Positions 1,489 through 57,436 of a stretch of 64,000 nucleotides of DNA are shown piece after piece; position 1 is the stretch's first letter; each line of letters begins with the position of its first letter. The translations under genes and the position numbers were made by a program. The notes beneath the pieces are model-generated. The model did not search any database. It saw nothing but the letters and a program-made list of their open reading frames with translations, and had not been told where the DNA came from. Origin of the DNA: a virus; IMG/VR virus record IMGVR_UViG_3300050120_000230, positions 214,325-278,324 of that record; one strand, given 5' to 3'.

Positions 1489-1741
1489 AATCTATGTTCC
1501 CTTGGAAGTCGTTTTGGTTGATGGGGACGAGGAAGAATTTTTGAACGCCGCGTTGAGAGAAGTATGGGACGATGTGCGGTGGCGTTTCGTCGTAGACGAA
1601 AATTGGGAAAATAAAGGTGTGGTATTCAAAATACCCACAGAGAGTTGCGCGATCAAGCTGTTGTTGGTCGGTGGTATGCGTGACGTTCCCAATGGGATGA
1701 TAGTCGAAGAAACAATCCACGACTTGTCTACGAAAGATTAG
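1481..1741 (+). CDS. Small hypothetical protein, possible divergent FK-motif family member
   Basis: Start chosen at the ATG that overlaps the phosphoesterase stop, giving 86 aa. It is acidic at the N-terminus and rich in Trp (EVWDDVRWRF). Its late segment TESCAIKLLLVGGM is loosely like the C-terminal (D/E)A-x-x-FK motif of the small-protein family common in this window, but F and W are lost, so membership is uncertain. It ends tail-to-tail with the minus-strand gene at 1738. Function unknown. Confidence 0.6.
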   Translation: MFEIYVPLEVVLVDGDEEEFLNAALREVWDDVRWRFVVDENWENKGVVFKIPTESCAIKLLLVGGMRDVPNGMIVEETIHDLSTKD

Positions 1742-2400
1742 ACGCTCTTGACGTGGGCTCGTCGGATCATCGCGTAGGTATCGGACACTTCTTTCATGTC
1801 TTTGTCGTCGTCGATGATGTGATATTCTTGGCGCTCGGGGTTACCGTATTTGTCGCCACGACGGCCGTCGTATCCACCGCAAGAGATGTTGAAGCCGATA
1901 CCTCGATCATCCCAGTTGTTCAGATGGGTGGTTCGCAGGCCACTGCGGCTAGGCTGATAGGCTCCGAGCGGAGAGTCTTCGCGCCCGGCGAAGAGTTCCT
2001 TGGCGGTGTTCAGGTCGATCACTTTACGAGCGAACGGACCCAGTGGGTCTTGTCTCGGGTTCTCTTTAGGCTCGTGGCCCTTGGCCCACTTCGTATAGGT
2101 GACTTGGAACTTTTGTTTGCGGAGTTCTGCGATCAACTGTCGCGCATCGGGTGCGGGTCGGAAGTCTCGAAAGTTTACGTCCAAGATCAGTTCAGGGGCG
2201 TATTCCTTGTCAAAATCGTGGGCAATGTAGCTTTGCGCGAAGGGGGAGAACTTCCCACTTGCAAAAAACGCCTGTTCGCCTTGCAGAATGCCGCCAATTG
2301 CGTCGGCGTAGCTGTTCATCGCCTTCTCTGTTTTGTGCGCGCCGAGGCTCACTACGTCACCTTCGACGAGAAGCTTAACGATGTCGATCAGATCACGCAT
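1738..2400 (-). CDS. Late protein with capsid-targeting-like N-terminus (MRDLIDIVKLLVEG)
   Basis: 220 aa, body not recognised. The first 14 residues (MRDLIDIVKLLVEG) resemble the amphipathic capsid-targeting peptides of T4 internal proteins, with a possible gp21-type (L/I)-x-E cleavage site at LVE. A CTAAATA late box lies only 4 nt before the ATG and there is no Shine-Dalgarno sequence. At least seven other MR- proteins here share this arrangement. The C-terminal half is Gly/Asp/Arg-rich (CGGYDGRRGDKYGNPER). Inferred to be a packaged internal protein; activity unknown. Confidence 0.8.
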   Translation of the reverse strand: MRDLIDIVKLLVEGDVVSLGAHKTEKAMNSYADAIGGILQGEQAFFASGKFSPFAQSYIAHDFDKEYAPELILDVNFRDFRPAPDARQLIAELRKQKFQVTYTKWAKGHEPKENPRQDPLGPFARKVIDLNTAKELFAGREDSPLGAYQPSRSGLRTTHLNNWDDRGIGFNISCGGYDGRRGDKYGNPERQEYHIIDDDKDMKEVSDTYAMIRRAHVKSV

Positions 2401-2404
2401 CCAG

Positions 2405-2411
2405 TATTTAG
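2405..2411 (-). promoter_or_regulatory. Late promoter box CTAAATA, 4 nt before ATG
   Basis: CTAAATA on the minus strand followed by CTGG and the ATG at 2400. It resembles the T4 late box TATAAATA. The spacing would put transcription start at or just inside the start codon. Confidence 0.65.
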
Positions 2412-2480
2412 GCGTAAATTGACACTGTGGCGCCCGGTCGTCATATTGAGTTTGGTTAACGAGATTTCCGGGGACGATCC

Positions 2481-5838: not shown

Positions 5839-6179
5839 TCTGCGAAATTGCTCGTCGGCTAAATATGTCAATGGACGAGCTTGGCGAAGATCAGCTTCAG
5901 ATGAGAGGCTTCATCGAGATCACGGAACAGTTGCTCTGTGCGTATGCGCGGGTGACTCGACCGGAGACGATGCTTGTAGAGAGCGTCCTAGAAGAAAGCG
6001 TTGAAACTACGGAGCATCCAATTGTCTCGGAAGCCCGTGACCTCGTTTTCAAACTGCGGGCCTTCATGGAAGATTCGTCAGGAGAATACGCGCTTGGTGT
6101 CGAAAACGGGATGCAGCGCGCCGCCGATATGATCGAGAACCTCATTCGGCGGCACGAGAAAGGTGACGGACTTGGATAA
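5820..6179 (+). CDS. Hypothetical acidic protein, start uncertain
   Basis: The frame opens at TTG 5820, inside the end of the preceding gene, with AGCAGGGA just upstream. An in-frame ATG at 5865 is the alternative. The product is about 105-119 aa, acidic and helical, with no motif recognised. It is followed by another overlapping gene, so 5551-6426 looks like one coupled operon behind the helicase. Confidence 0.6.
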   Translation: MEVPTLICEIARRLNMSMDELGEDQLQMRGFIEITEQLLCAYARVTRPETMLVESVLEESVETTEHPIVSEARDLVFKLRAFMEDSSGEYALGVENGMQRAADMIENLIRRHEKGDGLG

Positions 6180-8547: not shown

Positions 8548-8555
8548 GATAAATA
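8548..8555 (+). promoter_or_regulatory. Late promoter box GATAAATA
   Basis: GATAAATA about 35 nt before the ATG at 8590, leaving a leader that carries GGAAGGA as ribosome binding site. This is a clear T4-like late promoter with a normal leader. Confidence 0.75.
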
Positions 8556-8589
8556 CTTCTATCAACCTCCTCTTGGAAGGATCATTTCT

Positions 8590-8964
8590 ATGACTTACAA
8601 TGCAAACAAGGTCAACGGCCACGTCGCTTCGGGCGAACACCTGACCTCCGCAATCGACTACTTCACCGTGACCACCCCGATCAACCTCGGCGACACGGCG
8701 AACACCACGGTTTCCGGTCTGTCCGCTCTGGACAAGCTGGTCGAAATCGTTGCTCAGCGTGGCCAGCCGGTCATTCAGGGCGCCGTCACCGGCACCGGTC
8801 CATACGCCCTGAAGTTCGCAACCGAACACAAGGGTTCGTGGAACGTCACCGGCAACGCCGTCACTGACAACTCCGCAGCCGACCTGAAGGCCGCAATCCT
8901 CGCCGCTGGCGTTGACTACGGCTTCGACGCGAACACCTCCGTCACGGTTTCGGCTTCGCTGTAA
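8590..8964 (+). CDS. Small, probably abundant virion protein
   Basis: 124 aa, rich in Thr, Ala, Val, Asn and Gly, with alternating beta-type sequence (TVTTPINLGDTANTTVSGL). This composition is typical of phage decoration or tail-surface proteins. It is a single-gene unit: its own late box and strong ribosome binding site (GGAAGGA) upstream, and a strong terminator about 40 bases downstream, which suggests high late expression. No family is named. Confidence 0.7.
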   Translation: MTYNANKVNGHVASGEHLTSAIDYFTVTTPINLGDTANTTVSGLSALDKLVEIVAQRGQPVIQGAVTGTGPYALKFATEHKGSWNVTGNAVTDNSAADLKAAILAAGVDYGFDANTSVTVSASL

Positions 8965-12328: not shown

Positions 12329-12335
12329 CTAAATA
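12329..12335 (+). promoter_or_regulatory. Late promoter box CTAAATA
   Basis: CTAAATA 25 nt before the ATG at 12361, leaving a short leader with AGCAGC upstream of the start. Confidence 0.65.
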
Positions 12336-12360
12336 GATAATTGGTCATCAAAGCAGCATC

Positions 12361-12588
12361 ATGCGTTTTTTCGAAATTTCAAGTGGACTCCGTATCCCGG
12401 TGTCAGAAGAAGAGCAAGAAATTCTCGATCTGATCTCTCCTGAGAATCGGATCGCGAAATCGAAGCTCGACGAACGACAGAAGGAAGTCGCCCGAAATAT
12501 GGTGACGAGGGGTCTCCTTGTGCGCGAGCGCGAGGACGATGTTACGTTCCTCCGCACGAATAGCGCAGCCGACATTTGGAGATTTTGA
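12361..12588 (+). CDS. Small late protein starting MRFFEISSG
   Basis: 75 aa. The opening MRFFEISSG resembles the MR-x-x-E(I/L) leaders seen elsewhere, but the late box is 25 nt away rather than 4. The body is helical with Arg/Glu-rich segments (ARNMVTRGLLVREREDD), like a winged-helix remnant. Function unknown. Confidence 0.65.
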   Translation: MRFFEISSGLRIPVSEEEQEILDLISPENRIAKSKLDERQKEVARNMVTRGLLVREREDDVTFLRTNSAADIWRF

Positions 12589-15359: not shown

Positions 15360-17384
15360 ATGGCAATCGGTTACGTTGTTTATATGGGGAAAGGCGATCC
15401 AGTCGGAGACACTATCAAAGTGCCGCTCCGTCCTCATGCTGACCTTGCCTCTGCTCAGGCAGCGGCCGGAGATCATTCTCGCGTTTTCGAAGTGAATGTC
15501 GAAAATCCCGATGAAACGGGCAAGGGAACGTGCACCATCATCAAGCAAATCGATGGAAACATCGAAGAGGGCTTGCGTGCATGGCCCGACATGACTTTCG
15601 ATGACACCGAAGACGCACAAAGTGCTCTGGATTGGCATGACCGTCATGCGAAAATCCATGCGGGCAAAATGAAATCCGAGCCGGGTCGTAGAACCAGCCA
15701 CGCAGATTTCGTCAATATTCACAAACGCAAGGCCAAGGCCGCCAAAGAATGGCTTGCCAAGAACGGAGCCGCGAAGGAGCCCATGAAAGAAGACGCAAAC
15801 GCCGAACACTATCACGGTCTTACTGGCTGGGTTTCTGATTACAAAGCCCAGCGCAAAGCTGGCAACGTTGCGGACGCCAAGCAGACTCGCGACAACATCA
15901 AAGCCGTCATCAAGAAACACAATCTCGATGCAACCAAAGTCTGGGGCGAAGACCCCGATCAACCGAAGGAACCCATGAAAGAATCCAAAGCAGTGAGCGG
16001 CCTCGCCTTTCTCGTCGAGAGCGAACTCGAAAAGGCCCAAGTCGTTATTGCGGCGAAGGGTATTCTGGACAAGCTTCAGAAAATGGCTGAAGACCTCGCC
16101 AAGACCGAAGCCGACGATATCATGCCCATGCTCGACAGTATGCGTCTGACGTTTGGCCCGGAACTGACGGACAGCTTCAACGACATCACCACCGCGAAGA
16201 TTCGCCAGACCATGGAAGCCGTCAAGGGCGCCAAGGAAGCGATCACGCGTGAAGTCGGCCGCCTTGAAAACGAAGTCAACGGCGACATGACCAATGACAT
16301 TGGCATGGGCGACCAAGACAACGGCGAAGATATGGATGCAGGCGACATGGGTGCGGAAGCTCCCGAGGGCGAACTGAACATGGGCGACGACAACATGCCC
16401 CCGATGGATGGTGCGGAAGCTCCGATGCCGGGTGACGACGAAGAAGTTCCCGATCCGGCCGCAGATGGTGGTTTGGATGCAGCGTTCGACGACGCTGCCG
16501 CAGACACCACGGCCGCCGGTCGTGCAAAGAAGGAAAGTGTTCAGCGCAACGTGAAGGCGCTCAGCGAGTCCAAGAACCCGGATCGCCTCGTGTTCGAAAC
16601 CTTCCGCCGCACTCTGAAGGAATCGAAAGACGCCGTTCGTGCTGCTCAAGCTGTGGCACAGGCATTCGCCATCGATTTCGCCGACGTGGTCGCCATCGTG
16701 AAGGAAGGCAAGACATTCAAGGACGAAAAAGGCAAGACCGACAAGAACAAGGATCGCGCCGAAGACCGCAAGGAAAAGAAGCGCAATCGTCCCTCCGATC
16801 TCGACGAGGATTTCGGCGACAACAAGGCCCCTCCCTTCGGCAAGAAGGCCGATAAGGACGAAGGTGAGGACAAGAAAGACGACAAGGCCGACAAAAAGCC
16901 TGCCGCTTCCAAGAAGCCTTGGGAAAAAGATGACGAGAAAGTCGAAGAAGGTAAGACCTTCAAAGACGAAAAAGGCAAGACCGACAAGAACAAGGATCGC
17001 TCCGGCGAGCGCAAAGACAAGAAGCGCGAACGTGAAGAACTCGGGGAGGGTTCCAAGCGCCCTTTTGACTCTGCCAGCCCCCCGGACGTGCACCAGAAAA
17101 AGATAGCTCTCAAGACTTTGAAGATGTCGGACGTTGGTGCAGATGTCATGGGTGGCATGAGCAAGGTTGAAGCCCGCTCGTTCCTCAAGAACCGGTGCGG
17201 ATACAGCGATGCTCGAATCGCAAAACTCGAAGAGGGTGCGATTATGAACATTGGTGAGGCGACTATTGAGCAGTTGCAACGACGCGAAGAAGACCTCGCT
17301 CGTGCAGCCGCCGCCCGCCGCGCCAAGGGCTTCGGCGCCATGGCTGATGCCAAGGAAAAGCAGAAACCCGCCGAGAAAAAATGA
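15360..17384 (+). CDS. Large lysine-rich virion-type protein with direct repeats
   Basis: 674 aa, directly following the preceding stop. A globular N-terminal domain of about 120 residues is followed by KEPMKE-type linkers (three copies), a helical region, and a Met/Asp/Gly-rich stretch. Two nearly identical Lys-rich blocks come next, starting EGKTFKDEKGKTDKNKDR at residues 449 and 530. The C-terminus is helical. Such charged repeats fit a protein packed with DNA in the capsid; no homologue is recognised. The similarly long antisense frame is a composition artefact. Confidence 0.72.
   Translation: MAIGYVVYMGKGDPVGDTIKVPLRPHADLASAQAAAGDHSRVFEVNVENPDETGKGTCTIIKQIDGNIEEGLRAWPDMTFDDTEDAQSALDWHDRHAKIHAGKMKSEPGRRTSHADFVNIHKRKAKAAKEWLAKNGAAKEPMKEDANAEHYHGLTGWVSDYKAQRKAGNVADAKQTRDNIKAVIKKHNLDATKVWGEDPDQPKEPMKESKAVSGLAFLVESELEKAQVVIAAKGILDKLQKMAEDLAKTEADDIMPMLDSMRLTFGPELTDSFNDITTAKIRQTMEAVKGAKEAITREVGRLENEVNGDMTNDIGMGDQDNGEDMDAGDMGAEAPEGELNMGDDNMPPMDGAEAPMPGDDEEVPDPAADGGLDAAFDDAAADTTAAGRAKKESVQRNVKALSESKNPDRLVFETFRRTLKESKDAVRAAQAVAQAFAIDFADVVAIVKEGKTFKDEKGKTDKNKDRAEDRKEKKRNRPSDLDEDFGDNKAPPFGKKADKDEGEDKKDDKADKKPAASKKPWEKDDEKVEEGKTFKDEKGKTDKNKDRSGERKDKKREREELGEGSKRPFDSASPPDVHQKKIALKTLKMSDVGADVMGGMSKVEARSFLKNRCGYSDARIAKLEEGAIMNIGEATIEQLQRREEDLARAAAARRAKGFGAMADAKEKQKPAEKK
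16704..17000 (+). repeat. Direct repeat pair inside the lysine-rich gene
   Basis: Two 54-base copies (16704-16757 and 16947-17000) encode the same 18 residues with only a few silent changes, spaced 243 bases apart. Likely an internal duplication. Confidence 0.8.
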
Positions 17385-19962: not shown

Positions 19963-20412
19963 ATGAACCCGTTCTTGATGTCGCCCCGACAATTGTTGGC
20001 CGACTGGAAGACTTTCCGAACCTCTTTGTCGGCGCTCCCCGAGGCCGAGCAACTTGATTCGGTTGCAGAATACTGGGCCAAGGCGCCGGTGAAGACGATG
20101 GCCTATGATCCCGAGGCGTTGGATACCTACCCCACGCCTTGGGAAATGATGGACGAGAACGACTGGTGCCGGAACTCCGTGGCCGTGGGCATGGATTTCA
20201 CCCTGCGTTTGGCTGGCTGGTCCCCGGATCGCCTTCGCATCAAAATGATGCGTGACTACGACATTTCAGACCAAAAACTCGTCGTCGAAATTGACGGCAA
20301 CACCCTTCTTAACTACGATTATGGAATTGCAGTGGGTGTCCCGCAAACACGATTTGATATTCTTCAGACGTGGCGTTTTACGGGCAAGCATTACGAGAAA
20401 GTGGGCGGCTAA
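19963..20412 (+). CDS. Hypothetical protein, 149 aa
   Basis: Follows the structural gene by 28 bases. Trp/Asp-rich (AYDPEALDTYPTPWEMMDENDW), ending in a beta segment (RTWRFTGKHYEKVGG). Its stop codon lies inside the late box of nrdA. Function unknown; conserved-looking composition suggests a real, soluble protein. Confidence 0.68.
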   Translation: MNPFLMSPRQLLADWKTFRTSLSALPEAEQLDSVAEYWAKAPVKTMAYDPEALDTYPTPWEMMDENDWCRNSVAVGMDFTLRLAGWSPDRLRIKMMRDYDISDQKLVVEIDGNTLLNYDYGIAVGVPQTRFDILQTWRFTGKHYEKVGG

Positions 20413-20415
20413 ATA
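20409..20415 (+). promoter_or_regulatory. Late-type promoter box CTAAATA before nrdA
   Basis: CTAAATA overlapping the previous stop codon, 32 nt upstream of ATG 20448. Confidence 0.6.
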
Positions 20416-20447
20416 CCTCCCCAAAATCATTTCAGGACGTAAAAAAC

Positions 20448-22922
20448 ATGCAAGTTCGTAAGAGGAACGGCAGCTATGAGGCTGTTGACCTAAACAAAAT
20501 CGTCGGCTCTATTTCTCGTGTTTGTGCCGATCTCGGCGATCTCGACATTTTCAAGGTAGCTACCAAAACGGTTGGTGGTCTGGTGGACGGAGTTTCCACC
20601 CGAGAGCTTGATTTGCTCTCCATCCGTAACGCAGTCGGCCTCATCATCGAAGACCCGGTCTATTCCAAGGTCGCCGCCCGTCTTCTCTCGAACTTCATCA
20701 TCAAGGAAATCGACGGACAAGATATCCAGTCGTTCTCTCAATCCATTCAAATTGGATACGAGCAGGGCCTCATCAATCAACAGACCTACGATTTGGTCAC
20801 CGCGAACAAGCGCAAGCTGAATGCCGCCATCCGCAACGAGCGTGATTGGCTGTTCGAGTTCCACGGTATCCAGACGGTCTACGACCGCTATCTCCTGAAG
20901 CACCCCACGCTCGTGCTGCTTGGTGACGATGGTAAGAAGTCCCGTGCGGTCATCGAGACCCCGCAATACTTCCTGATGCGCGTGGCTTGCGGTCTGTGCA
21001 ACGACGCGGCCGAAGCCGTCGAACTCTACAATCTGCTGTCCAGCCTCGAATATATGGCTTCGACGCCGACCCTGTTCAATTCGGGCACGGTCCACAGCCA
21101 AATGTCGTCCTGCTATCTGCTCGATAGCCCGCTCGACAGCCTCGAAGACATCTACAAGCGTTACAGCGACATTGCGGCGCTCTCGAAGTTCGCCGGTGGT
21201 ATTGGCGTTGCCGCCAGCCGCATTCGGTCGAAGGGCCGCCACATCAAAGGGACCAACGGCAAGTCCAATGGTCTCGTGCCGTGGCTGCATACCCTCTCCG
21301 GTTCAGTCGCCGCCGTCAATCAAGGTGGCAAGCGCAAGGGCGCGGCCTGCGTCTATCTTGAGACCCATCACCCGGACATCATGCAGTTCCTCGAACTGCG
21401 AGACAACACCGGTGAGAAGGAGCAGCGCGCCTACAACCTGAACCTCGCGAACTGGGTGCCCGACCTGTTCATGAAGCGCGTTCAGGAAGATGGCCTGTGG
21501 TCTTTGATCGACCCGTCCGTGGCGCCGGAACTCACCGATCTCTACGGCGACGAATATGAAGCCCGAGTGCTTGAGATCGAACGTGACGGGTTGTTCGTCG
21601 AACAAATCCCCGCCCGGAAACTCTACGGTCGCATGATGCGGACGTTGGCGGAAACCGGCAACGGCTGGATGTGCTTCAAGGACACGTCCAATCGTCGGGG
21701 TAATCAGGTCGGCGAAGGTGGCATGATCCACCTGTCGAACCTCTGCACCGAAATCCTCGAAATTACGTCCTCCGGCAAGCGCACCAATTTGTCGCGCACG
21801 GAAATGCTGGGAACTTCTGCCTCCGATCTGATCGAGAAAAACGTTCGCGTCACCGGGTTCGATCCGAAGTCCGACACCTTCGAAGCCATTCAAGGCATGG
21901 AGACAGCGGTCTGCAATCTCGGTTCGATCAACGCCGGGCGTGGATACGTGAAGAACGGCAAGCTGAACGTCGAGAAGCTGCACAAGAACGTCGCCACCGC
22001 GATCAAATATCTGGACCGCGTCATCGACCGCAATTTCTACCCGATCCAAGAAGCCGAATCGTCCAACATGCGTTGGCGGCCGGTGGGTCTGGGCCTGATG
22101 GGTCTGGCTGATCTCTTCTTCCAACTGCGTCTGCCGTTCGAGAGCGACGAAGCTATCGAACTGTCGGCCACGATTCAGGAAGAAATCTACTACCAAGCTC
22201 TGAAGACTTCCAACGAACTGGCGAAAGCCTATGGCGCTCACCGTGATTTCAACCTCACGCGCGCCGCCAAGGGCGATCTGCAATTTGATCTGGCAGGTGT
22301 CAAACCGAAAGACATGACTCGCTGGGACGCTTTGAAGGCGGACATCAAGGAGCACGGTCTTCGAAACTCGCTGGTGATCGCCATCGCGCCCACCGCGACT
22401 ATCGCGCACATCACCGGTGTCGAAGAATGCATTGAGCCGATCAAGTCGAACCTGCTCAAGCGCGAAACCCTCTCGGGAGAGTTCATCGCGATCAACCGCT
22501 ATCTGGTTGACGATCTGAAGAAACTCGGCCGATGGGACGCAGAAGCGATCAACCTGCTGAAGCGCGACGAAGGGTCCATGCAGAAAATTCCGGGCCTGCC
22601 GGAAGAATTGTATGCACTCTACAAGACGGTTTGGGAGATCAGTCAAAAGAAGGTGATCGAACACGGCGCCGCCCGTGGCGCCTTCATCGATCAATCCCAA
22701 TCGTTGAACACTTTCATCGACTTGAACAAATACCCCGAAGACAAGCGTATCGGAGTCCTTTCCTCTCTCTATATGTATGCATGGGAAAAGGGTCTGAAGA
22801 CCACATACTACTTCCGCAGTCGCTCGGGTTCTCGCATTGAGAAAGTCACCGTCTCTGGCACGACTTCCGTGGTGCCTGCCATGGCGGCCGAAGAACCGGA
22901 AATCTGCGAAAGCTGCACTTAA
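20448..22922 (+). CDS. nrdA: Ribonucleoside-diphosphate reductase, class Ia alpha subunit
   Basis: 824 aa from ATG 20448 (a longer upstream frame is spurious). Reduces NDPs to dNDPs with the NrdB radical partner. An ATP-cone regulatory domain opens the protein (QVRKRNGSYEAVDLNKIV). Active-site elements are all present: the SSCYL cysteine, NLCTE, the second redox cysteine in AVCNLGS, the radical-transfer tyrosine pair in TTYYFRSRS, and a C-terminal C-E-S-C shuttle pair. Between NLCTE and AVCNLGS there is an extra segment of roughly 35 residues compared with the E. coli enzyme as I remember it. A late-type box precedes it. Confidence 0.96.
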   Translation: MQVRKRNGSYEAVDLNKIVGSISRVCADLGDLDIFKVATKTVGGLVDGVSTRELDLLSIRNAVGLIIEDPVYSKVAARLLSNFIIKEIDGQDIQSFSQSIQIGYEQGLINQQTYDLVTANKRKLNAAIRNERDWLFEFHGIQTVYDRYLLKHPTLVLLGDDGKKSRAVIETPQYFLMRVACGLCNDAAEAVELYNLLSSLEYMASTPTLFNSGTVHSQMSSCYLLDSPLDSLEDIYKRYSDIAALSKFAGGIGVAASRIRSKGRHIKGTNGKSNGLVPWLHTLSGSVAAVNQGGKRKGAACVYLETHHPDIMQFLELRDNTGEKEQRAYNLNLANWVPDLFMKRVQEDGLWSLIDPSVAPELTDLYGDEYEARVLEIERDGLFVEQIPARKLYGRMMRTLAETGNGWMCFKDTSNRRGNQVGEGGMIHLSNLCTEILEITSSGKRTNLSRTEMLGTSASDLIEKNVRVTGFDPKSDTFEAIQGMETAVCNLGSINAGRGYVKNGKLNVEKLHKNVATAIKYLDRVIDRNFYPIQEAESSNMRWRPVGLGLMGLADLFFQLRLPFESDEAIELSATIQEEIYYQALKTSNELAKAYGAHRDFNLTRAAKGDLQFDLAGVKPKDMTRWDALKADIKEHGLRNSLVIAIAPTATIAHITGVEECIEPIKSNLLKRETLSGEFIAINRYLVDDLKKLGRWDAEAINLLKRDEGSMQKIPGLPEELYALYKTVWEISQKKVIEHGAARGAFIDQSQSLNTFIDLNKYPEDKRIGVLSSLYMYAWEKGLKTTYYFRSRSGSRIEKVTVSGTTSVVPAMAAEEPEICESCT

Positions 22923-34178: not shown

Positions 34179-34185
34179 CTAAATA
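34179..34185 (+). promoter_or_regulatory. Late box CTAAATA, 4 nt before ATG
   Basis: CTAAATA, GTGG, then ATG 34190. No ribosome binding site. Confidence 0.68.
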
Positions 34186-34189: not shown

Positions 34190-35326
34190 ATGCGTGAGTT
34201 CATCAATCTCCTAGAGCAAGCCGACAACGTCACGCTCTATCGCGGCGACAGCGGCCCTGTGGAGAAGTTCGAACTGGCCAAGACCGATTCAGGAGCTTTG
34301 CTCGGCATCGGCATCTATCTCACCGATAGCCCGGAAGTGGCTGGCGACTATACCGTCAAGGGTTCCCAAGACATCGCCTATCCGTCAGGGCGCCGGGGCG
34401 AAGACAATTCGTTCAACGATCCGAAGCAATTGACCGCTGGGTATCTGCGGAAACTCATGAACGATGCTGGTTTCCAACAGCAAATGGACGACACGAAAAA
34501 TCAGTGGCAGGACAAATATTACAGCCTGTCGCGAGATATCGATTGGACCGACCATGAACGTGCTCGTAAGGAGCGCGACGAAATGCAAGCCAAGTTCCAA
34601 GCGGACTATCAGGTCGTCCGATCCAAGATGATCCGCGCCGCCGTGGCCAAGGCCAAGGCACAGTTCAAGGCGATTCGACCGAACCTACGGATGGTCAAGC
34701 TGACCACTGGGGAATACATCTTCACGAAAGTTGGCCGGGCGGCCAGCATCGCGAAGTTTATCGTGCCTACGGCCTACCTCGAACGATGCCTTCATGCTGA
34801 GCGGCCTCTGCCTGATGATCTTCTTCCGATCATGAAAGCGGCTTTCGCTCGTGTGGCTCATGACAAAAACCCCGATCAAAAATGGGACCTACGGGTTCGG
34901 AATCCCAAGGGGAACAACGGCGACGAAGACATTGGCCTTTCATTCGATGAGTTCATCGCAGGCTTTCGTAAAGCGGGCGCTCGCTACGCGTGGACGGACG
35001 AAGTTCGTGGCGGCAAGGGTGAGAACCCTTCGCTCGACATCCTCTGGAACGGCACGCACAGCGGCTATCACGTCTTCCAGAACAAAGAAGCACAAGAGAC
35101 CCTCATGCATGAACTCATGGCCATGGGCTACGTCGGCTACGCCTACGACGGCGGCGTTCGTCTAGCTGGCACCGGTGCTCGTGGTGGCGGTGGCATTCGT
35201 CACAACGCCTACGTTCTTTGGGACGAAAATGCCGTTCATTCTTTCCGCGTCGAGGGCGGCGGGGTGACTGATGACGAAGTCGGTGACTTGGAAAAAGGTA
35301 TCAAGGCAGCAAAAGTCCTGCGTTAA
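34190..35326 (+). CDS. Capsid-leader protein with ADP-ribosyltransferase-like fold
   Basis: 378 aa. Leader MREFINLLEQ resembles T4 capsid-targeting peptides with an LLE cleavage site. After it comes VTLYRGDSG-x-VEKFEL and GIGIYLTDSPEVAGDYT, the N-terminal pattern of ART-type toxins. The C-terminal part has GYVGYAYDGG and RHNAYVLWDENAVHSFRV, as in phage polyvalent-protein ARTs. The classical E-x-E is not obvious, so activity is uncertain. A charged helical insert fills residues 100-230. Late box directly before the start. Candidate packaged effector. Confidence 0.75.
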   Translation: MREFINLLEQADNVTLYRGDSGPVEKFELAKTDSGALLGIGIYLTDSPEVAGDYTVKGSQDIAYPSGRRGEDNSFNDPKQLTAGYLRKLMNDAGFQQQMDDTKNQWQDKYYSLSRDIDWTDHERARKERDEMQAKFQADYQVVRSKMIRAAVAKAKAQFKAIRPNLRMVKLTTGEYIFTKVGRAASIAKFIVPTAYLERCLHAERPLPDDLLPIMKAAFARVAHDKNPDQKWDLRVRNPKGNNGDEDIGLSFDEFIAGFRKAGARYAWTDEVRGGKGENPSLDILWNGTHSGYHVFQNKEAQETLMHELMAMGYVGYAYDGGVRLAGTGARGGGGIRHNAYVLWDENAVHSFRVEGGGVTDDEVGDLEKGIKAAKVLR

Positions 35327-35329: not shown

Positions 35330-35336
35330 CTAAATA
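35330..35336 (+). promoter_or_regulatory. Late box CTAAATA, 4 nt before ATG
   Basis: CTAAATA, GTTC, ATG 35341. A second in-frame ATG (ATGCG, 35350) is 13 nt away and encodes the MREL leader. Confidence 0.65.
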
Positions 35337-35340: not shown

Positions 35341-35739
35341 ATGTTTTCGATGCGTGAACTGATGTTGATGGTCGAAACCGAGCGTCCGAGAGAAGGGCCG
35401 CCGGTTCCCGACACGTTGTTCCATGGCACCGGTGAAGAAGCGTGGAATAGCATCCAAGAGAGCGACACCATGTATTCGTCGGATCACAGAGACGAAGACG
35501 CTATTTCCTTCACCACCGATTGGCACACTGCAAATCGCTTCGCACAAGCCGTAGCCAAGCGAGAGGGCGGCGCCGGAGTCATCATCGAGTTCAACGGTGA
35601 CGATCTGGCTCGCAAGTTCAACGTCGAGCCATTTTCAGATAGTGGGCTGGTTCACGCCGAACAAGAATGGCTAGTCAAGGTTGGCAGCATCACACAGGTC
35701 ACCCGCTATATCATTGGCGTGGAAAAGGTGTCCGCGTAG
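35341..35739 (+). CDS. Capsid-leader protein, ADP-ribosyltransferase-like
   Basis: 132 aa (or 129 from ATG 35350, which gives the MR leader MRELMLMVETE). Core features of an ART fold: DTLFHGTGEEAW with a conserved His-Gly-Thr, ISFTTDWHTANRFAQA (strand and helix), VIIEFNG, and EQEWLVKVGSI, where E-Q-E fits the catalytic E-x-E. Compact single-domain enzyme that would modify a host protein. It follows another ART-like gene by 14 bases and has its own late box. Confidence 0.75.
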   Translation: MFSMRELMLMVETERPREGPPVPDTLFHGTGEEAWNSIQESDTMYSSDHRDEDAISFTTDWHTANRFAQAVAKREGGAGVIIEFNGDDLARKFNVEPFSDSGLVHAEQEWLVKVGSITQVTRYIIGVEKVSA

Positions 35740-37711: not shown

Positions 37712-38223
37712 AGGAGAGCACGGCGCGTATTTTCTAGCATTTGCTCCGTCACCATTTGCTTCAGGATTTGACGTTTCGCTCTACGCTTTTGTTTGCTGCC
37801 TCGCGGCGCCTTTCGATATCGCACACGAAGCGCAAAAATCGCGGCCGTAGGTCCGGTCATCGGTTGCACGCCACAAATGTCATAAGCGATGACATTCGGC
37901 ATAGCACGGCGAACGAGCGAGATAAGAACGCGATTGAGTTTCTGTTCGTCGGTGATGATCTCCCCAGAGAAGAACAGCTTGAACAGAGTGGCGTCACGAT
38001 TCGAGCGGAACTTCACCTGAATGAACGACGGCCATTTGAACTGTTCCCACGTCTGGCCGCCGCCAGAACTGCCGATCTTCGCGACCTTGGCCGTCTTCGT
38101 TTTGTTGGCGCGCAACCATTCTTCAATGCGGTCGTGCATTTCGCGAAATTGATCGACGATTGCGTTCGCCGATGAATTGGGACGCAGATCGGGCCGGAGG
38201 CAGAAAGTGGACCACTTGGACAT
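37708..38223 (-). CDS. FK-motif family member with basic extension
   Basis: 171 aa from the ATG of MSKWSTF. The family module comes first (helix DRIEEWLRANK, strand SFIQVKF, then NRDATLFKLFF). About 75 residues follow, ending very basic (RKAPRGSKQKRRAKRQ), an addition not seen in the other copies and possibly RNA/DNA binding. Confidence 0.7.
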   Translation of the reverse strand: MSKWSTFCLRPDLRPNSSANAIVDQFREMHDRIEEWLRANKTKTAKVAKIGSSGGGQTWEQFKWPSFIQVKFRSNRDATLFKLFFSGEIITDEQKLNRVLISLVRRAMPNVIAYDICGVQPMTGPTAAIFALRVRYRKAPRGSKQKRRAKRQILKQMVTEQMLENTRRALL

Positions 38224-46613: not shown

Positions 46614-47219
46614 TTAGCGAATCTGTTCCACGCCGATGATATTCACCGGAGAGTTTTCGCGGATGCGAATTTCTTTTTCGTCTTCATAGTCAGGCATTAT
46701 GTTCATCGCCAGCGTCGTGGTCCAATCCACTACCGACATGTTGACCTCGGCGGCGATCCGCCATTTGACGTTGCCTTCACTGAAATCGCCCCAGTGAGCA
46801 TCAGCAGCATTCTTGTCCCATGACCAATAGATGCCGGGATGACGGGCATCTGGTTTCCAATCGGCCGGAGCGGTGATGACACGATAAAGGGTGGCGTTGC
46901 CAGACGCGTCGAACAGGTGAGCGAAATTCCCCCAAGCATCCCAGAGACGTTCTTCGACCCAACCCTTAAACCAATGTGTGAACTCAGGCGTGTTGGTGTC
47001 TACCGCGCTCGTGTCTGATCCATCGAAATTATCGTGATTGATTTCGATTTCGTGCTCACGAGCGTAGGCGTATTTCACGCTCGCGGCGCCACCAGCCTCG
47101 GTGCTCCAATCCATGTCGTTGTAGACCAGATTGAAAACGGCCTTGGCATCGACCAAGTGATTCGGCGTGGGAAGTTCCTCGGCCAACAAATTCTCGACGA
47201 GGTTGATGAAATCACGCAT
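46614..47219 (-). CDS. Capsid-leader protein, probable ADP-ribosyltransferase
   Basis: 201 aa with leader MRDFINLVENLLAEE (possible cleavage after LAE or LVE). The rest fits an ART: conserved Arg in TLYRVITAPADW, a beta turn GIYWSWDKNAADAHWG, WRIAAEVNM, and EDEKEIRIREN, where E-K-E matches the catalytic E-x-E and the spacing resembles T4 Alt/Mod. Late box TCGG-spaced 4 nt before the ATG, no ribosome binding site. A candidate enzyme injected with the DNA. Confidence 0.8.
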   Translation of the reverse strand: MRDFINLVENLLAEELPTPNHLVDAKAVFNLVYNDMDWSTEAGGAASVKYAYAREHEIEINHDNFDGSDTSAVDTNTPEFTHWFKGWVEERLWDAWGNFAHLFDASGNATLYRVITAPADWKPDARHPGIYWSWDKNAADAHWGDFSEGNVKWRIAAEVNMSVVDWTTTLAMNIMPDYEDEKEIRIRENSPVNIIGVEQIR

Positions 47220-47223: not shown

Positions 47224-47230
47224 TATTTAG
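47224..47230 (-). promoter_or_regulatory. Late box CTAAATA, 4 nt before ATG
   Basis: Minus strand CTAAATA-TCGG-ATG (47219). Confidence 0.68.
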
Positions 47231-48775: not shown

Positions 48776-49360
48776 TCAACCAGTTTGGAACCGCGTCCGG
48801 GTAGAGCCCCATCCATCTCTGTCAGGAGCGTAAGGATCGACGATCACGAACTGATCGCCACGCTTCATGATGTTACCCGAGTTCAAGTCCACCCAGCAGC
48901 CACCTTTCTGCGAATGAAGTTCCTGCAACGTATCTAGAAATAGTTGTTGCTCGGGCGAGAAATCCCATTGCTCGAAATCAGCCTGTGGCTTGGAAGCAAT
49001 GGACACCAACGTGTGCAGTCCGGCCGCTCTCTGCTCTTCAGAAGTGGTCTCTGACAACCGCTCGATGCGGATCATCCGCGCTTTTTCATTCAGTCGCACA
49101 CCGTTGCCCCTGAACCGAGGCAAACAGGGATTGTTCCGGTGGGCTTTGCAGAATGAAATGAAACGGTCGTAGCATTCGTCATTGTAGACTTTGACGACTT
49201 CGTTGACGCGCGGGTTTTCGAAGACGAGACTAAACTCGCCACCACTGAGCATCGAGAAACCGAGGGTCTCCATGTAATCTTCCAACTGTTCGACCGTCTC
49301 GATAGGACGAGAGGTGTGGACCTTAGCCCCGGCCAGTTCGAAAATCTCGTGAGAGCGCAT
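48776..49360 (-). CDS. Capsid-leader protein with protein-kinase-like fold
   Basis: 194 aa; leader MRSHEIFELAG. A protein-kinase-like core is readable: glycine-rich loop LSGGEFSLVF (38-47), ATP-binding Lys57 in VVKV, catalytic loop WVDLNSGNIM with Asp158 and Asn163, and the metal Asp175 in IVDP replacing DFG. It is short for a kinase (no large C-lobe extras). CTAAATA lies 4 nt before the ATG with no ribosome binding site. A candidate injected kinase for host proteins. Confidence 0.8.
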   Translation of the reverse strand: MRSHEIFELAGAKVHTSRPIETVEQLEDYMETLGFSMLSGGEFSLVFENPRVNEVVKVYNDECYDRFISFCKAHRNNPCLPRFRGNGVRLNEKARMIRIERLSETTSEEQRAAGLHTLVSIASKPQADFEQWDFSPEQQLFLDTLQELHSQKGGCWVDLNSGNIMKRGDQFVIVDPYAPDRDGWGSTRTRFQTG

Positions 49361-49364: not shown

Positions 49365-49371
49365 TATTTAG
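49365..49371 (-). promoter_or_regulatory. Late box CTAAATA, 4 nt before ATG
   Basis: Minus strand CTAAATA-GGGG-ATG (49360). Confidence 0.68.
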
Positions 49372-52077: not shown

Positions 52078-52460
52078 TGACAACCATAAAGAAACTATCG
52101 AACCCCGTATTCCTCATCGAGACGACTCTCACGAACATCGTCTCACAATGGTTCCATGGCCAATATTGGAATGAGGAAACGAAACTTCGGGTGTCTTTGA
52201 ATGCACCCGTGCACCCTAAAGACTACGATGGCTTCGATAAGCCCGGTTACGATTGGAAGGGTTGGACCATCGTCGGTCAGACGCCACTCAAGCCACAAGA
52301 TCGCGGCTATGCCGGACCCACGAGCACCTACACAAGAGAAGGAACCGTGGGTTCTATTCGCGTCTACAACAGCGGAGAGATTATGCTCTTCATTCAAGAA
52401 GAGTATGGCTACATGTTTGACGACGCCATGGCGATCTATCGAAAGATGGAACGCTCTTAG
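52077..52460 (+). CDS. Hypothetical protein, 127 aa
   Basis: Starts in the overlap with the preceding stop. Gly/Tyr/Trp-rich (GYDWKGWTIVGQTPLKPQDRGYAG), ends with strand IMLFI and DDAMAIYRKMERS, faintly like the FK motif. Overlaps the converging gene at 52457. Confidence 0.62.
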   Translation: MTTIKKLSNPVFLIETTLTNIVSQWFHGQYWNEETKLRVSLNAPVHPKDYDGFDKPGYDWKGWTIVGQTPLKPQDRGYAGPTSTYTREGTVGSIRVYNSGEIMLFIQEEYGYMFDDAMAIYRKMERS

Positions 52461-53077
52461 ATCGGGCTACACGAGTAGACGAGACGGAGCCTTGCTTTGA
52501 AGGCGCCCAACACATTGTGCCACTCACCGTTCTTGAACGAGATGGCGTGCGGCCAGCCGCCCGCATGAATCTGTGCGATGAGCACAGCATTGGGATCATT
52601 TTCCTTGAGCCACACTTGAGCTTGCCGGACGTTCATCGGCGTCATCATCCATGGCATCTTGTAGTAGCCGTCCATTTTCCAGCCAAGTTCACGCATGATC
52701 GCTGATTTGTGTGCGGCGTTGAGGCCGTAGCGGCTGAAATAGGGCTTCGCCACTTCGAAGACTTCTTCCCACGTTTTTCCGGTGACTTCGGCCATGGCGA
52801 TCACCGCACAGCTACCGATGTCGCGAGCTTGCTCGGGGGTATAGCTGCCTTGATTTCGATCCCGGCCGCCGCCTTCTTCGAGCTTGCTGATGCGGGGCTT
52901 GAAGAGCTTCTGATCGCCCTTGGTGGTCTTGAGGACCGGCTGATTGTGATCGTCCTTCGTGAACCCCTTGACGATGGCCTTGCGGTTCTTGAACTTACCC
53001 ACCTTCACTTCATCACCGACTTCGATGGTCGGAAGTTCGAGGCTCTCGATTTCGGTCATGATCTCGTGGGCACGCAT
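52457..53077 (-). CDS. Capsid-leader protein with papain-like peptidase domain
   Basis: 206 aa; leader MRAHEIMTEIESLE with (L/I)-x-E sites. A small beta domain (GDEVKVGKFKNRKAIVKGF) precedes a cysteine-peptidase-like region: Cys90 in DIGSCAVIAMAEVTG, a helical linker with LGWK, then His177 in GGWPHAISF followed by an Asn within NGEWHN. These have the order Cys-His-Asn/Asp of papain/C39-type folds. Late box 4 nt before the ATG. Candidate injected protease; catalysis unproven. Confidence 0.75.
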   Translation of the reverse strand: MRAHEIMTEIESLELPTIEVGDEVKVGKFKNRKAIVKGFTKDDHNQPVLKTTKGDQKLFKPRISKLEEGGGRDRNQGSYTPEQARDIGSCAVIAMAEVTGKTWEEVFEVAKPYFSRYGLNAAHKSAIMRELGWKMDGYYKMPWMMTPMNVRQAQVWLKENDPNAVLIAQIHAGGWPHAISFKNGEWHNVLGAFKARLRLVYSCSPI

Positions 53078-53081
53078 CCGA

Positions 53082-53098
53082 TATTTAGTCCCTAAATA
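53082..53098. promoter_or_regulatory. Divergent pair of late boxes
   Basis: Minus CTAAATA (53088-53082) with TCGG before ATG 53077, and plus CTAAATA (53092-53098) with GCCTC before GTG 53104. The two boxes are three bases apart and drive two capsid-leader genes in opposite directions. Confidence 0.65.
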
Positions 53099-53103
53099 GC
53101 CTC

Positions 53104-53712
53104 GTGCGTATTTTTCAACTCTTCGAGGCGGCGAGTTTGCCCATGGACCCGGAATCTCGGTTCCGCCGGGCCGAAGAGCTTGGTTTCACCGTCAAAGCGT
53201 TCCATGGCACCGGAGCAGACTTCCATTCGTTCTCGCTGGCCAAAGGTAAGCCTGCGCGCGGTGGTGGCTACGCCCCGATGTTCTCGAACGTCCCCGGCGA
53301 GGCTGGCGGCTACGCCAACAAGATCAAGGGTCATGTTCTTCCCGTTCTGCTGAGAATGCAGCGGCCGATGGAAATCAGTCACCTCAAGAAACCCGGCATG
53401 GACAAGCTGCTCGCCGGTGTCCCTTCACGATGGGATGACGGCGCCAAGAGTACCCGAGACGTGATGGATTCGGTGTGGAAATACTGGTTCGACAAACTGG
53501 GTGACCAAAAGAAAGCATGGACCGAAGTGTATCGCCACTTCGCCGCGCTGGGATACGACAGTTTCGTGTTCGCCGACATCGAGCGCGACTATCCCGATGG
53601 CGCCACGGATTCGTTGCACACGAAGTTCGTCATCTTCGATCCAAAAAATGTTCGTTCGATTTTTGCGGCATTCGATCCCAGCAAGGCGAACTCCGCGAAC
53701 CTGCTGGCTTAG
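53104..53712 (+). CDS. Capsid-leader protein, polyvalent-type ADP-ribosyltransferase
   Basis: 202 aa from GTG 53104; leader (M)RIFQLFEAASLP. Strong ART signs: VKAFHGTGADFHSFSLAKG near residue 33, APMFSNVPGEAGGYAN, and the closing block FVIFDPKNVRSIFAAFDPSKA, which matches the end of ARTs found in phage polyvalent proteins. The missing or altered acidic pair makes activity uncertain. Late box 5 nt before the start. Confidence 0.78.
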   Translation: MRIFQLFEAASLPMDPESRFRRAEELGFTVKAFHGTGADFHSFSLAKGKPARGGGYAPMFSNVPGEAGGYANKIKGHVLPVLLRMQRPMEISHLKKPGMDKLLAGVPSRWDDGAKSTRDVMDSVWKYWFDKLGDQKKAWTEVYRHFAALGYDSFVFADIERDYPDGATDSLHTKFVIFDPKNVRSIFAAFDPSKANSANLLA

Positions 53713-54746: not shown

Positions 54747-54829
54747 GCCACGGTGGCTCAGCGGCGACAGCGCGTCATTCGTAATGACGAATACAAACAC
54801 CGGGGGTTCGAGTCCCTCCCGTGGCACCA
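54747..54829 (+). tRNA. tRNA-Thr(CGU) with long variable region
   Basis: Acceptor GCCACGG/CCGTGGC perfect, anticodon stem CGTCA/TGACG with loop TTCGTAA (anticodon CGT), T arm GGGGG-TTCGAGT-CCCTC, discriminator A and encoded CCA (54827-54829). D stem is only three pairs plus one mismatch. The variable region is 12 nt (usual 4-5) with no stem. Anticodon reads ACG. Confidence 0.8.
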
Positions 54830-55080: not shown

Positions 55081-55217
55081 ATACCTGAAAGTCCCCACCC
55101 AAAGATGGACAAGACTCTTCAGGGAACATGATGGGGCCTATGACAGTCCTATTTAGTTTGTTCCCACACGCCAGTCATGGCCAAACCCCAACAAACCAAA
55201 ATTAAGGAACACACATT

Positions 55218-55637
55218 ATGGGAATATTACCCCCAAAATTACTGCCGCAACTGCCCAAACTTCCACCACTCGCCCCCGGCTTGACGCCCGACAGTGCCAT
55301 GTTGCCGCCCGGCCTTAGAGCAATCTTTGACTCCAAGCCCAACTCTTTGTTGGAAAAACTCAGTCTTGGAGTCCAAGCACCCAAGGACGGTTTTTTCGGT
55401 AGCGATTTTCAAGCCCTTTTGAAACGCGAGACAGTTTTGAGCAAAATGTCATTTGCTCCTCCTCCTCTTGCTCCTCTCGCCCCTCCACCTCGCTCACCTC
55501 AAATCATCTACTCTCACGAATACACCCGCATCGACATAGATACTATACGAGTTACTATAACGATGCAGTGTGGTGGAAAAGTCATCCATGTGGAAAGCGA
55601 AACAGTTGATCTTCGAGAACTCAACTGGGTATCGTAA
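55218..55637 (+). CDS. Proline-rich hypothetical protein, 139 aa
   Basis: TAAGGAACACACATT precedes the ATG. N-terminal half is Pro/Leu-rich (PPKLLPQLPKLPPLAPGL), with a second Pro block (PPPLAPLAPPPRSP) and a beta-like end (VRVTITMQCGGKVIHVE), finishing LNWVS. Less GC-rich than its neighbours. Function unknown. Confidence 0.6.
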   Translation: MGILPPKLLPQLPKLPPLAPGLTPDSAMLPPGLRAIFDSKPNSLLEKLSLGVQAPKDGFFGSDFQALLKRETVLSKMSFAPPPLAPLAPPPRSPQIIYSHEYTRIDIDTIRVTITMQCGGKVIHVESETVDLRELNWVS

Positions 55638-55647
55638 GATAAACCAG

Positions 55648-55676
55648 ACACCGCGCCTTTGGTAGGGCGCGGTGTT
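55648..55676. terminator. Bidirectional terminator
   Basis: ACACCGCGCC/GGCGCGGTGT, 8-nt loop, between converging genes at 55637 and 55676. Confidence 0.75.
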
Positions 55677-57436
55677 CACCTTCGAATGCCGTGCTTCTCG
55701 ATGTAAGCCGGGATGCCCGGCCGCAATTCGATCATGTGCTTGTAGCTCATGTGCTGTTCGAAATACTCGGCGTAGGTAGCTGCGTCTCTCATCGGCAAAG
55801 ACTTGAACGCCATGTCGAACGCTTTGATGTTGTGGTTCATGAGTGTCGTGAGGAAGCGTGACCAGTTCATGCCGGTGTCAGCTTCGCTCTTGTAAGACAT
55901 CACGAAATATTTGTAGAGCAACTTGGGTGAGATGTTCTGCGGCGAGCGCGAACCGAATGCCATCACTTCCCTTGTGAAAGCTTGGATATCATGCGTCATC
56001 GCCCAATCAACCAGTTCGTCATTGGCCGCCCGCCCGTGATGGTTCTGCCCAATGACCTTACCGATGTAGCTGGGATCGTTTTTCATGATCGTGATGAGTG
56101 CCTCGGTTGAGAACGGCACCTTATCGAAGTAGTAGGCGAACTTCGTGGCGTTCTCGTTGAGATAGGCAAGAACTCCGGGGCGAACGATCTCGGCATGTAG
56201 GAACTTTTCGAGTGAGTCCGGGTGCTGTTTCAGAAGAGCTACGAGTTTTTCGTCCGTCATGGGCATCCAACGGATGAGTCCGATGTAGCCGAAGTAGACG
56301 AACTCTATCCAATGCTTCTCGAAAAATTCCTGCGTTCCCTTCGGTAGAATGTCGAACGGGATCAGATGCGGCATCGACGACAGGTTCTTTTTCATCACGT
56401 CTTCCGCGAGCCCGGCCGCAACTTTTCCGGCCTTCAAATCGCGCATGAACATGCCGGGATTTTCCGAGTAGATTTGGACGTAACCGCGTTCGCTTTGCAC
56501 ATCGGCGCGATTGTCTACGACTTCCAACACCCGCAGATTTTCTTTCGAGAAGAAGACCGCCTGTGTGGGTTCATTTTCATGGATGATGCCCCTGTCAGTC
56601 GGATCGACCACACCGGAGTATCCGAGCGCACGAAACAGCTTCGACCATTGAGCGCGGACGGTGGCTTTCGCTGCTTCGACGATCACACTCTCGCTGGTGT
56701 ATTCGTCTTCTTCGGCCTCATCGTCGTGATCTTCCCAATCATCGTCTTCATCATCGTCGGGCACGAAGTCGTCTTCATATTCTTCGTCCTCATCGTCGTC
56801 TTCGCCATATTTGATCTCGACGAAATCGCGAGCGTCGGGATTGCCATGAACGCCGTTGGCGATATTGGTCAAATACATCGCAGCGATGCGGGTCACGTTC
56901 CAGAAAGCGCCAGCAGTCGATTGAACCAGTGCATGTCGTTCGGCACGGTCCACGTCGATGCGGATGTGCAAACCTTGGTGATCCATAATAGTCTGGATTT
57001 TTTCAACATCTGCTCGCATATCGGCGCGGCTGTAGGTGGACAGGTCGAGTATCTTGCCGCCTGCACGGAAGACCTGAATGTAAGGCTCGTTGCCTGCGAA
57101 AGGCACGACGCCTTTTTCTTTGATGACGTAATCGACCGGATAGGAATAGATGCCAATCGGGGTGTCGTATTGTGATTTCGGATTGATACCGAACTTCGTG
57201 CCGCGAACGTTGTGGGCACCCTTCTTCGAACTTACGCCGCCTTTGAAGGCAGTATCGGCGCGTAGCTTGTTGCCATGACTGGCGACGCCAACATCAGAGA
57301 CGTAGCTGACGAACACGTCTGTCTGTCCCGCATATTTGGACAATTCCTCTACGGTCGAACGCTTCGGCGCCAACCCGCCTGCTCGGCGCTTCTCACTGAG
57401 GAGAGAACGGTTGTTGAAAAGTTCGACCAGACGCAT
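55676..57436 (-). CDS. Large capsid-leader protein, 586 aa
   Basis: Leader MRLVELFNNRSLLSEKR; late box ATAAATA 4 nt before the ATG. Residues 40-130 (VFVSYVSDVGVASHG, YDTPIGIYSYPVDYV, YIQVFRAGGKILDL) resemble a toxin/ART-like fold. A highly acidic low-complexity segment (Asp/Glu runs) follows near residue 210-245, then ALGYSGVVDPTDRGIIHENEPTQAVFF, which recalls the end of a polyvalent ART. The C-terminal 250 residues are helical and may form repeats. The largest candidate packaged protein here. Confidence 0.72.
   Translation of the reverse strand: MRLVELFNNRSLLSEKRRAGGLAPKRSTVEELSKYAGQTDVFVSYVSDVGVASHGNKLRADTAFKGGVSSKKGAHNVRGTKFGINPKSQYDTPIGIYSYPVDYVIKEKGVVPFAGNEPYIQVFRAGGKILDLSTYSRADMRADVEKIQTIMDHQGLHIRIDVDRAERHALVQSTAGAFWNVTRIAAMYLTNIANGVHGNPDARDFVEIKYGEDDDEDEEYEDDFVPDDDEDDDWEDHDDEAEEDEYTSESVIVEAAKATVRAQWSKLFRALGYSGVVDPTDRGIIHENEPTQAVFFSKENLRVLEVVDNRADVQSERGYVQIYSENPGMFMRDLKAGKVAAGLAEDVMKKNLSSMPHLIPFDILPKGTQEFFEKHWIEFVYFGYIGLIRWMPMTDEKLVALLKQHPDSLEKFLHAEIVRPGVLAYLNENATKFAYYFDKVPFSTEALITIMKNDPSYIGKVIGQNHHGRAANDELVDWAMTHDIQAFTREVMAFGSRSPQNISPKLLYKYFVMSYKSEADTGMNWSRFLTTLMNHNIKAFDMAFKSLPMRDAATYAEYFEQHMSYKHMIELRPGIPAYIEKHGIRR

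Follow-up and report, generated by a model that had tools for sequence, protein, structure and literature searches.

Why should eight genes on both strands of one viral sequence carry a late-promoter box almost touching the start codon, and why should their products open with much the same short peptide? The question is raised by a stretch of 64,000 nucleotides (the window), bases 214325-278324 of the 415,409-bp IMG/VR virus record IMGVR_UViG_3300050120_000230, labelled G000 below. A preliminary description of the window had presented the eight genes, named here by position and strand of their starts (2400-, 34190+, 35341+, 47219-, 49360-, 53077-, 53104+ and 57436-), as a cohort of late effectors that are packaged in the capsid and injected with the DNA. 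We consider it probable that two things come together in them, leaderless late promoters and T4-type capsid-targeting tags.

Direct reading of the window bears out the starts, boxes and spacers claimed for the eight genes: a TAAATA box stands 4 nt 5' of the start codon in seven of them and 5 nt 5' of it at 53104+, where the start is GTG (box letters CTAAATA in seven cases and ATAAATA in one, 57436-). When compared with dinucleotide shuffles, TAAATANNNNATG (TAAATA-N4-ATG) has 7 sites in the window versus 0.07 expected, a count reached in 0 of 100 shuffles, and TAAATANNNNATGCG has 6 sites versus 0.01 expected. The proposed pattern search over the rest of the genome revealed a set larger than first noted: in the whole record 18 TAAATA-N-ATG sites have 4 nt and 27 have 5 nt between box and ATG (45 in total), versus 0-4 sites at each of the other spacings from 0 to 12 nt. 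For ATGs that open frames of at least 60 aa, the numbers of boxes at 4-5 nt and over 6-19 nt are 39 and 12 in G000 (252 kb), 23 and 1 in a 499-kb contig (G001), and 16 and 3 in another contig (G009), with a second group at 20-40 nt in all three. A hexamer test that presupposes no box returned the same word: at 4-5 nt before open reading frames (ORFs) of at least 100 aa, TAAATA is the most enriched hexamer in G000, G001 and G009 (34, 21 and 16 versus 0.55, 0.37 and 0.18 expected, respectively), its core mostly preceded by C or A, as in phage Aeh1. Class counts were taken directly from the box-adjacent start, since the gene caller, a simple codon-usage script, missed 49360- and picked later starts for 53104+ and 35341+.

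The 4-5 nt geometry is a general late-gene mode of the lineage, common to virion structural genes. It is not specific to effectors, because G000 genes for virion structural and tail-fibre proteins that lack the MR peptide likewise have the box 4-5 nt from the start. The idea that the spacing marks an effector cohort had to be given up for this reason, and also because tagged genes in relatives can carry ordinary Shine-Dalgarno (SD) leaders. The contrast drawn with other late genes holds only in part: the window does have ordinary leaders of about 25-35 nt behind the same box, but structural genes elsewhere sit at 4-5 nt. Examples of the ordinary arrangement are the box with a 34-nt leader and SD at 8550..8589 (+), ahead of gene 8590-8964, and the box with a 32-nt leader at 20410..20447 (+), ahead of the gene for the ribonucleotide reductase large subunit (20448-22922). 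Three further boxes were seen in passing: 4 nt from the start of a gene for a 2495-aa virion structural protein (L172:12267-19751, minus strand; phrog_10938); at 5 nt before the gene of a G009 protein that resembles it at the N-terminus; and with a 25-nt leader before a 75-aa ORF of the window (12330-12588, plus strand), whose tag-like start MRFFEISSGLR has no (L/I)-x-E.

What the spacing would mean for transcription can be read from known promoters. The T4 late box TATAAATA lies at -13 to -6, and CTAAATA of Aeh1 starts at -12 (PMC1524935), from which it follows that a 5-nt spacer sets +1 on the A of the ATG and a 4-nt spacer sets that A at -1. The earlier concern that transcription would begin at or just after the A applies to the 4-nt genes only and amounts to one or two bases. 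In 23 of the 27 G000 genes of the 5-nt group the ATG directly follows C or T, so that a start on the A would be a pyrimidine-purine step; genes of the 4-nt group mostly have GG there, and their transcription may begin precisely at the A or at either G. The claimed lack of a Shine-Dalgarno sequence is confirmed: SD matches of at least 5/6 precede 3% of the 4-5 nt genes, 3.7% of random positions and 24-26% of genes with longer leaders or no box, which places SD strength in the 4-5 nt genes at the random level, as expected of leaderless mRNA. The strongest single argument for leaderless messages comes from divergent pairs, which leave no upstream room. In several contigs both boxes of such a pair lie inside 22-32 bp, once 2 bp apart; in the window, the divergent starts 53077- and 53104+ are separated by a 26-bp gap (53078..53103; CATCCGATATTTAGTCCCTAAATAGCCTCGTG) that holds both boxes back to back (TAAATA 53082-53087, minus strand, and 53093-53098, plus strand) and is too small for a leader or SD. 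The sparse 6-19 nt range, too, would follow if leaders with too little room for an SD were avoided and zero-length ones worked. Beside its 4-5 nt genes, G001 has genes for prohead protease, scaffold, gp67-like protein and capsid in which this box is followed by a leader some tens of nt long, and so two modes coexist in one genome. As judged from these sequence features, late transcription of the 4-5 nt class is very probably leaderless.

The second feature is the N-terminal peptide. All eight genes had been said to begin with MR; six open directly with ATGCG and 53104+ with GTGCG, and 35341+ departs from the rule, starting MFSMREL with MR at residues 4-5. Peptide statistics were drawn from three contigs, G000, G001 and G009, in which 23 of 48, 13 of 23 and 14 of 20 genes of the 4-5 nt class have MR starts, versus 11 of 237 other G000 genes. 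Within residues 5-20, (L/I)-x-E is present in 20/23, 11/13 and 12/14 of these MR genes (43/50), versus 44/237 (Fisher p 5e-11, 1e-6 and 4e-7). Glutamate at residue 8-10 is found in 41/50 versus 51/237, a large hydrophobic residue at position 7 in 40/50 versus 85/237 (p=9e-9), and one at position 4 in 26/50 versus 74/237. The tag of T4 IPIII comprises the first 10 residues, with targeting mainly by residues 4 and 7 and processing by residues 8 and 10, and gp21 cuts after L/I-x-E (PMC9026906). T4 IPII and IPIII begin MKTYQEFIAE/A (slashes here and below mark the cleavage position), and two G009 proteins begin MKTYFEIVAES and MKTYADILVES. The tag is modular: 98 tagged proteins fall into 56 BLAST groups, and the diverse bodies have only the tag in common. 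In relatives the tag persists where the start is arranged differently, so that it can be uncoupled from the leaderless start; the two are distinct, overlapping features. The suggested match to the T4 capsid-targeting sequence with its (L/I)-x-E site thus stands at the level of the peptides, and in all likelihood the tag serves T4-type capsid targeting.

The head genes that such targeting calls to mind are present in G001, which encodes a portal, a gp67-like protein, a gp21-type protease (phrog_207, E=4e-58), a scaffold and a gp23-type capsid protein with SLME/AASSG, an L-x-E site of the kind cut by T4, in its propeptide. Homologs of gp55 were found in G001 (E=9e-25) and in a further contig, G002 (E=1e-21). 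No gp21 match (phrog_207) and no gp55 match were obtained in G000 or G009, records that may be incomplete; a PF03420 search for gp21 in G000, made without a positive control, gave none, and the G000 record yielded no complete major capsid gene. It is consequently through the relatives that a T4-type head is connected with the set, since G000 has gp23-like fragments only. One is a short ORF of the window (37708-38139, minus strand) with a 48-aa gp23-like segment (match 37798-37941), 46% identical to residues 64-111 of the G001 gp23; a second partial gp23-like ORF lies at G000:396695-397093.

In Phosso, a cultured Sinorhizobium jumbo phage, two genes (L223:16144-16659 and 16670-17248) have tag-like starts, MRASELFEF... 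and MSGPDLRKFMNILNES..., and SD-like leaders. Both are situated in the head cluster, directly behind a gene annotated as scaffolding protein (MANFLTEAMTFDQAQ...), which is protease-like by comparison with the N-terminus of the G001 gp21. A strict scan of the Phosso and PA5oct stretches for SD-led tagged genes gave none at SD 5/6; annotated Phosso genes nonetheless show MRASELFEF, MRYNEFSKE and MSGPDLRKFMNILNES. The few PA5oct proteins marked as detected by mass spectrometry that were inspected have no such tag, and PA5oct thus provides no test. For Phosso, the annotation also lists a translation initiation factor IF-1 and a peptide deformylase of its own (L224:16147-16365 and 24937-25455).

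The spacing peak is found in at least six further uncultured large T4-like contigs. An IMG/VR scan for CTAAATANNGGATGCG returned at least 115 stretches, and in many of the matches listed a protein with the MR peptide begins exactly at the matched ATG. Counts of TAAATAN{4,5}ATG on both strands, with the reversed pattern as control, were 103/0 (499 kb), 55/0 (578 kb), 52/7 (561 kb), 71/6 (607 kb) and 44/0 (240 kb), and in smaller contigs 17/2 (130 kb) and 30/5 (280 kb); a spacing of 8-9 nt gave 2-11 sites in the same contigs. No excess at 4-5 nt was seen in T4 (10/12), S-CRM01 (7/1, yet 7 at 8-9 nt), Cr30, MA01 and two uncultured huge phages, nor a 4-5 nt peak in the nearest cultured relatives by helicase (Phosso, Atu_ph07, PA5oct, XaC1) or in GAP32; Aeh1 has the CTAAATA box, mostly ahead of SD leaders, and no peak. 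Its absence from T4, Aeh1, cyanophages and the nearest cultured jumbo phages makes the feature lineage-specific, and the searches made found it in uncultured phages only. Two families may be added. One, of 113-130 aa (L045:11397-11735 and about 15 similar loci, in IMG/VR contigs of ~37-46% GC), mostly starts MRAKEFI(T/V)E with the box 4 nt 5' and has no match in INPHARED; the other is a tagged nucleotidyltransferase-like family (L044:2275-2985 and nine similar loci; GSNANYTWTEHSDLDLHLIV) with relatives in Synechococcus phages and Caulobacter phage Cr30, phages without the 4-5 nt box peak.

Other explanations of the geometry have been considered. Short AT-rich words are common in some phages, and the ATG-adjacent box might be an effect of chance or composition; the probability of this is practically nil, given 7 window sites versus 0.07 expected, reversed controls near zero in GC-rich contigs and the absence of the peak from T4, Aeh1 and others, and the shuffles rule out a chance origin of the spacing. 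It is very improbable that the true start is a downstream codon behind an ordinary leader and that the spacing between box and ATG is a property of promoter DNA. The several in-frame downstream ATGs of 35341+ would suit this idea, as would members in which the MR motif lies a few residues in (MFSMR, MRMR, MADIR); in these, however, the ATG is still 4-5 nt from the box, the peptide read from the first ATG is conserved as protein while its codons vary (the glutamate at 8-10), and the same spacing is found in structural genes with unrelated N-termini and in divergent pairs without upstream room. Transcripts might also start further upstream, from other promoters or by read-through, with leadered translation of a non-SD kind and a near-ATG box that is not a working promoter. 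Some members do lie behind same-strand genes, where read-through is possible; but in three contigs no hexamer is more enriched at exactly 4-5 nt than TAAATA, an upstream transcript in a divergent pair would be antisense to the neighbouring gene, and at other places in the genome ordinary leaders follow this very box, all of which renders this very improbable.

For the peptide, the competing view is that it binds a membrane, a phage compartment, or a degradation or chaperone factor and is no capsid tag. Short amphipathic helices have many uses, G000 itself is without a gp21 match, and the tagged proteins are predicted virion components; these points leave the view a small probability, against which speak the (L/I)-x-E end, the hydrophobic residue 7, the near-identity to T4 MKTYQEFIAEA, the diverse bodies with only the tag in common, the late box and the tag-like genes in the Phosso head cluster.

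In the reading of leaderless promoters combined with capsid-targeting tags, a T4-type late promoter (TAAATA, usually CTAAATA) would lie 4-5 nt before the starts of dozens of late genes, and gp55-type late transcription would begin at the A of the ATG or no more than about one or two bases from it, giving leaderless mRNAs that need no Shine-Dalgarno sequence; further late genes in these genomes, such as those for scaffold, protease and capsid, would use the same box with ordinary leaders. In about half of the leaderless genes the first 8-10 residues would form a capsid-targeting sequence, MR-x-x-(E/I)-(I/L)-(L/I/F)-x-E, which would bind the prohead core and then be cut after (L/I)-x-E by a gp21-type prohead protease. 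The freed ADP-ribosyltransferases (ARTs), kinases, acetyltransferases and metallopeptidases would stay in the head and enter the host with the DNA; co-injection and host modification would follow the T4 precedent. Several points weigh against this reading: we infer the 5' ends, packaging and cleavage of these uncultured phages from their sequences; the peptide statistics come from three contigs only; the structural genes share the geometry, which is then no effector mark; the 4-nt sites need a start-site choice shifted by a base or more under strict T4 spacing; G000 has gp23-like fragments only and no gp21 or gp55 match; and the nearest cultured relatives are without the peak. As a speculative extension, which we think rather unlikely, the late regulon could be split by leader length, with SD-led mRNAs for bulk head proteins and leaderless ones for head cargo and some virion proteins, and the phage may alter late initiation (ribosomes or initiation factors) in favour of leaderless messages; the IF-1 and peptide deformylase annotated in Phosso are of note in this connection.

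The bodies of the tagged proteins had been described as ADP-ribosyltransferases, a protein kinase and a papain-like peptidase. Diverse, ART-rich enzymes and the kinase were recovered, and the peptidase was not: its candidate, 53077-, matched only phrog_3754. A domain census of 64 tagged proteins gave ART-PolyVal six times, SprT, GNAT, kinase and DUF3990 twice each, and a nucleotidyltransferase, a cell-wall hydrolase and an HNH domain; 64 other G000 genes, taken as control, had no ART, SprT or GNAT but showed various other domains. Among head-packaged, injected phage proteins, the macromolecule-modifying enzymes predicted most often are ARTs (PMC9503650). The tagged proteins are mostly of 80-600 aa, and are not of the large multidomain polyvalent kind.

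In the window, gene 2400- (1738..2400, minus strand; 220 aa; MRDLIDIVKLLVE...) has its CTAAATA box at 2405..2411 (minus strand; TAAATA 2405-2410), 4 nt from the ATG, and no SD; no function is assigned to its body, which matches neither a Pfam nor a PHROG family with a meaningful E-value and has no relative in viral_contigs. A possible ninth member (5860..6179, plus strand; 102 aa; MDELGEDQLQMRGFIEITEQ; TAAATA 5860-5865, 5 nt, ATG 5871) is weaker because its start sits within a longer open frame. Gene 34190+ (34190..35326, plus strand; 378 aa; MREFINLLE/Q; CTAAATA 34179..34185, plus strand, 4 nt) encodes a putative ADP-ribosyltransferase (Pfam ART-PolyVal, E=0.0022, 19.2 bits, below cut-off). 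Its orthologs (65% identical) keep box-4-ATG and MREFINLLER, as does a 44% relative in G009; in a relative from a 457-kb phage ...IRKWINIITES is retained and the start is arranged differently. Gene 35341+ (35341..35739, plus strand; 132 aa; MFSMRELMLMVE; CTAAATA 35330..35336, plus strand, 4 nt) has a weakly KptA/ART-like body (Pfam PTS_2-RNA, E=0.0067, below cut-off). In 47219- (46614..47219, minus strand; 201 aa; MRDFINLVENLLAEE; CTAAATA 47224..47230, minus strand, 4 nt), ART-like motifs (TLYR, YWSW, EKEI) were seen by eye only, and no Pfam or PHROG family matched. Gene 49360- (48776..49360, minus strand; 194 aa; MRSHEIFELAG; CTAAATA 49365..49371, minus strand, 4 nt) encodes a putative protein kinase (phrog_15752, labelled protein kinase, inhibitor of host transcription, E=2.8e-5; phrog_2828, E=6.7e-5), for which a single weak relative was found.

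The divergent pair consists of 53077- (52457..53077, minus strand; 206 aa; MRAHEIMTEIESLE), with a KOW-like segment (KOW, E=0.052), a Cys/His domain and the match to phrog_3754 (unknown function, E=2.8e-5), and 53104+ (53104..53712, plus strand; 202 aa; GTG start; (V/M)RIFQLFE/A). The former has no Pfam peptidase match, the papain-like reading being a matter of motif only; the latter is an ADP-ribosyltransferase by Pfam ART-PolyVal (PF18760; E=8.7e-12, 46.4 bits, curated cut-off 31.2). Gene 57436- (55676..57436, minus strand; 586 aa; MRLVELFNNRSLLSEK; ATAAATA 57441..57447, minus strand, 4 nt) has a body without assigned function and a conserved segment at 80-130, INPKSxYxTPxGIYxYPxDYV; its relatives L216 (67% overall), L058 (31%) and L217 (23%) all have a tag-like N-terminus, and a distant relative begins MNFKQWLILSEA. 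Modelled with AlphaFold from four-sequence alignments, 34190+ and 57436- gave poor structures (pLDDT 63 and 62), and Foldseek versus PDB found nothing; no fold is therefore claimed. Window stretches had no close relative in INPHARED (megablast, tblastn), and the ribonucleotide reductase relatives in bacterial genomes indicated no host. The sole tRNA found in the window is a tRNA-Thr (CGT) at 54747-54829 (plus strand).

Most genes of uncultured giant phages are without known function. If the combined reading is true, a sequence rule (late box, 4-5 nt, ATG, MR...(L/I)-x-E) would list the injected proteins of such phages, T4-type tagged packaging would extend to dozens of cargo proteins in a single phage, and an entire class of late genes in a T4-superfamily phage would run on leaderless mRNAs, so that competition by leaderless messages during infection becomes directly testable. 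Each part is known separately; the combination and its scale appear to be new as far as the literature was searched.

Among known systems, polyvalent injected proteins and MuF-fused effectors (PMC9503650) have overlapping enzymes, above all ARTs, and predicted injection in common with the present set, but are giant multidomain proteins or head-protein fusions, whereas the proteins described here are separate, mostly small and short-tagged. In DarB of P1 (PMC9024508) an N-terminal signal likewise sends an effector into the head, with the difference that the signal lies within the first 30 residues and that the phage group is another one. Leaderless mRNAs of bacteria and some phages (PMC4633059; PMC5312081) resemble those proposed here in that they lack an SD and their start codon should lie at the 5' end or close to it; ours are deduced from promoter geometry only and concern a whole late-gene class in T4-superfamily phages, of which no description was found in the literature searched. 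The gp55-dependent late promoters of T4 and Aeh1 (PMC1524935, PMC7892883) share the TATAAATA or CTAAATA box, and gp55 homologs are present in G001 and G002; unlike here, their box is not concentrated 4-5 nt before ATG, and Aeh1 boxes precede SD leaders. The T4 internal proteins IPI, IPII, IPIII and Alt (PMC9026906, PMC3012670) share with the present set a tag of about 10 residues ending in (L/I)-x-E, diverse bodies including an ADP-ribosyltransferase, and a gp21-type protease with an L-x-E capsid site, the latter two found here in the relative G001. T4 ipII and ipIII have leaders with an SD-like AAAGGA where the genes described here have the late box 4-5 nt from the ATG, and the handful of internal proteins in T4 contrasts with dozens of tagged proteins per genome here, mostly with MR in place of MK and known from their genes.

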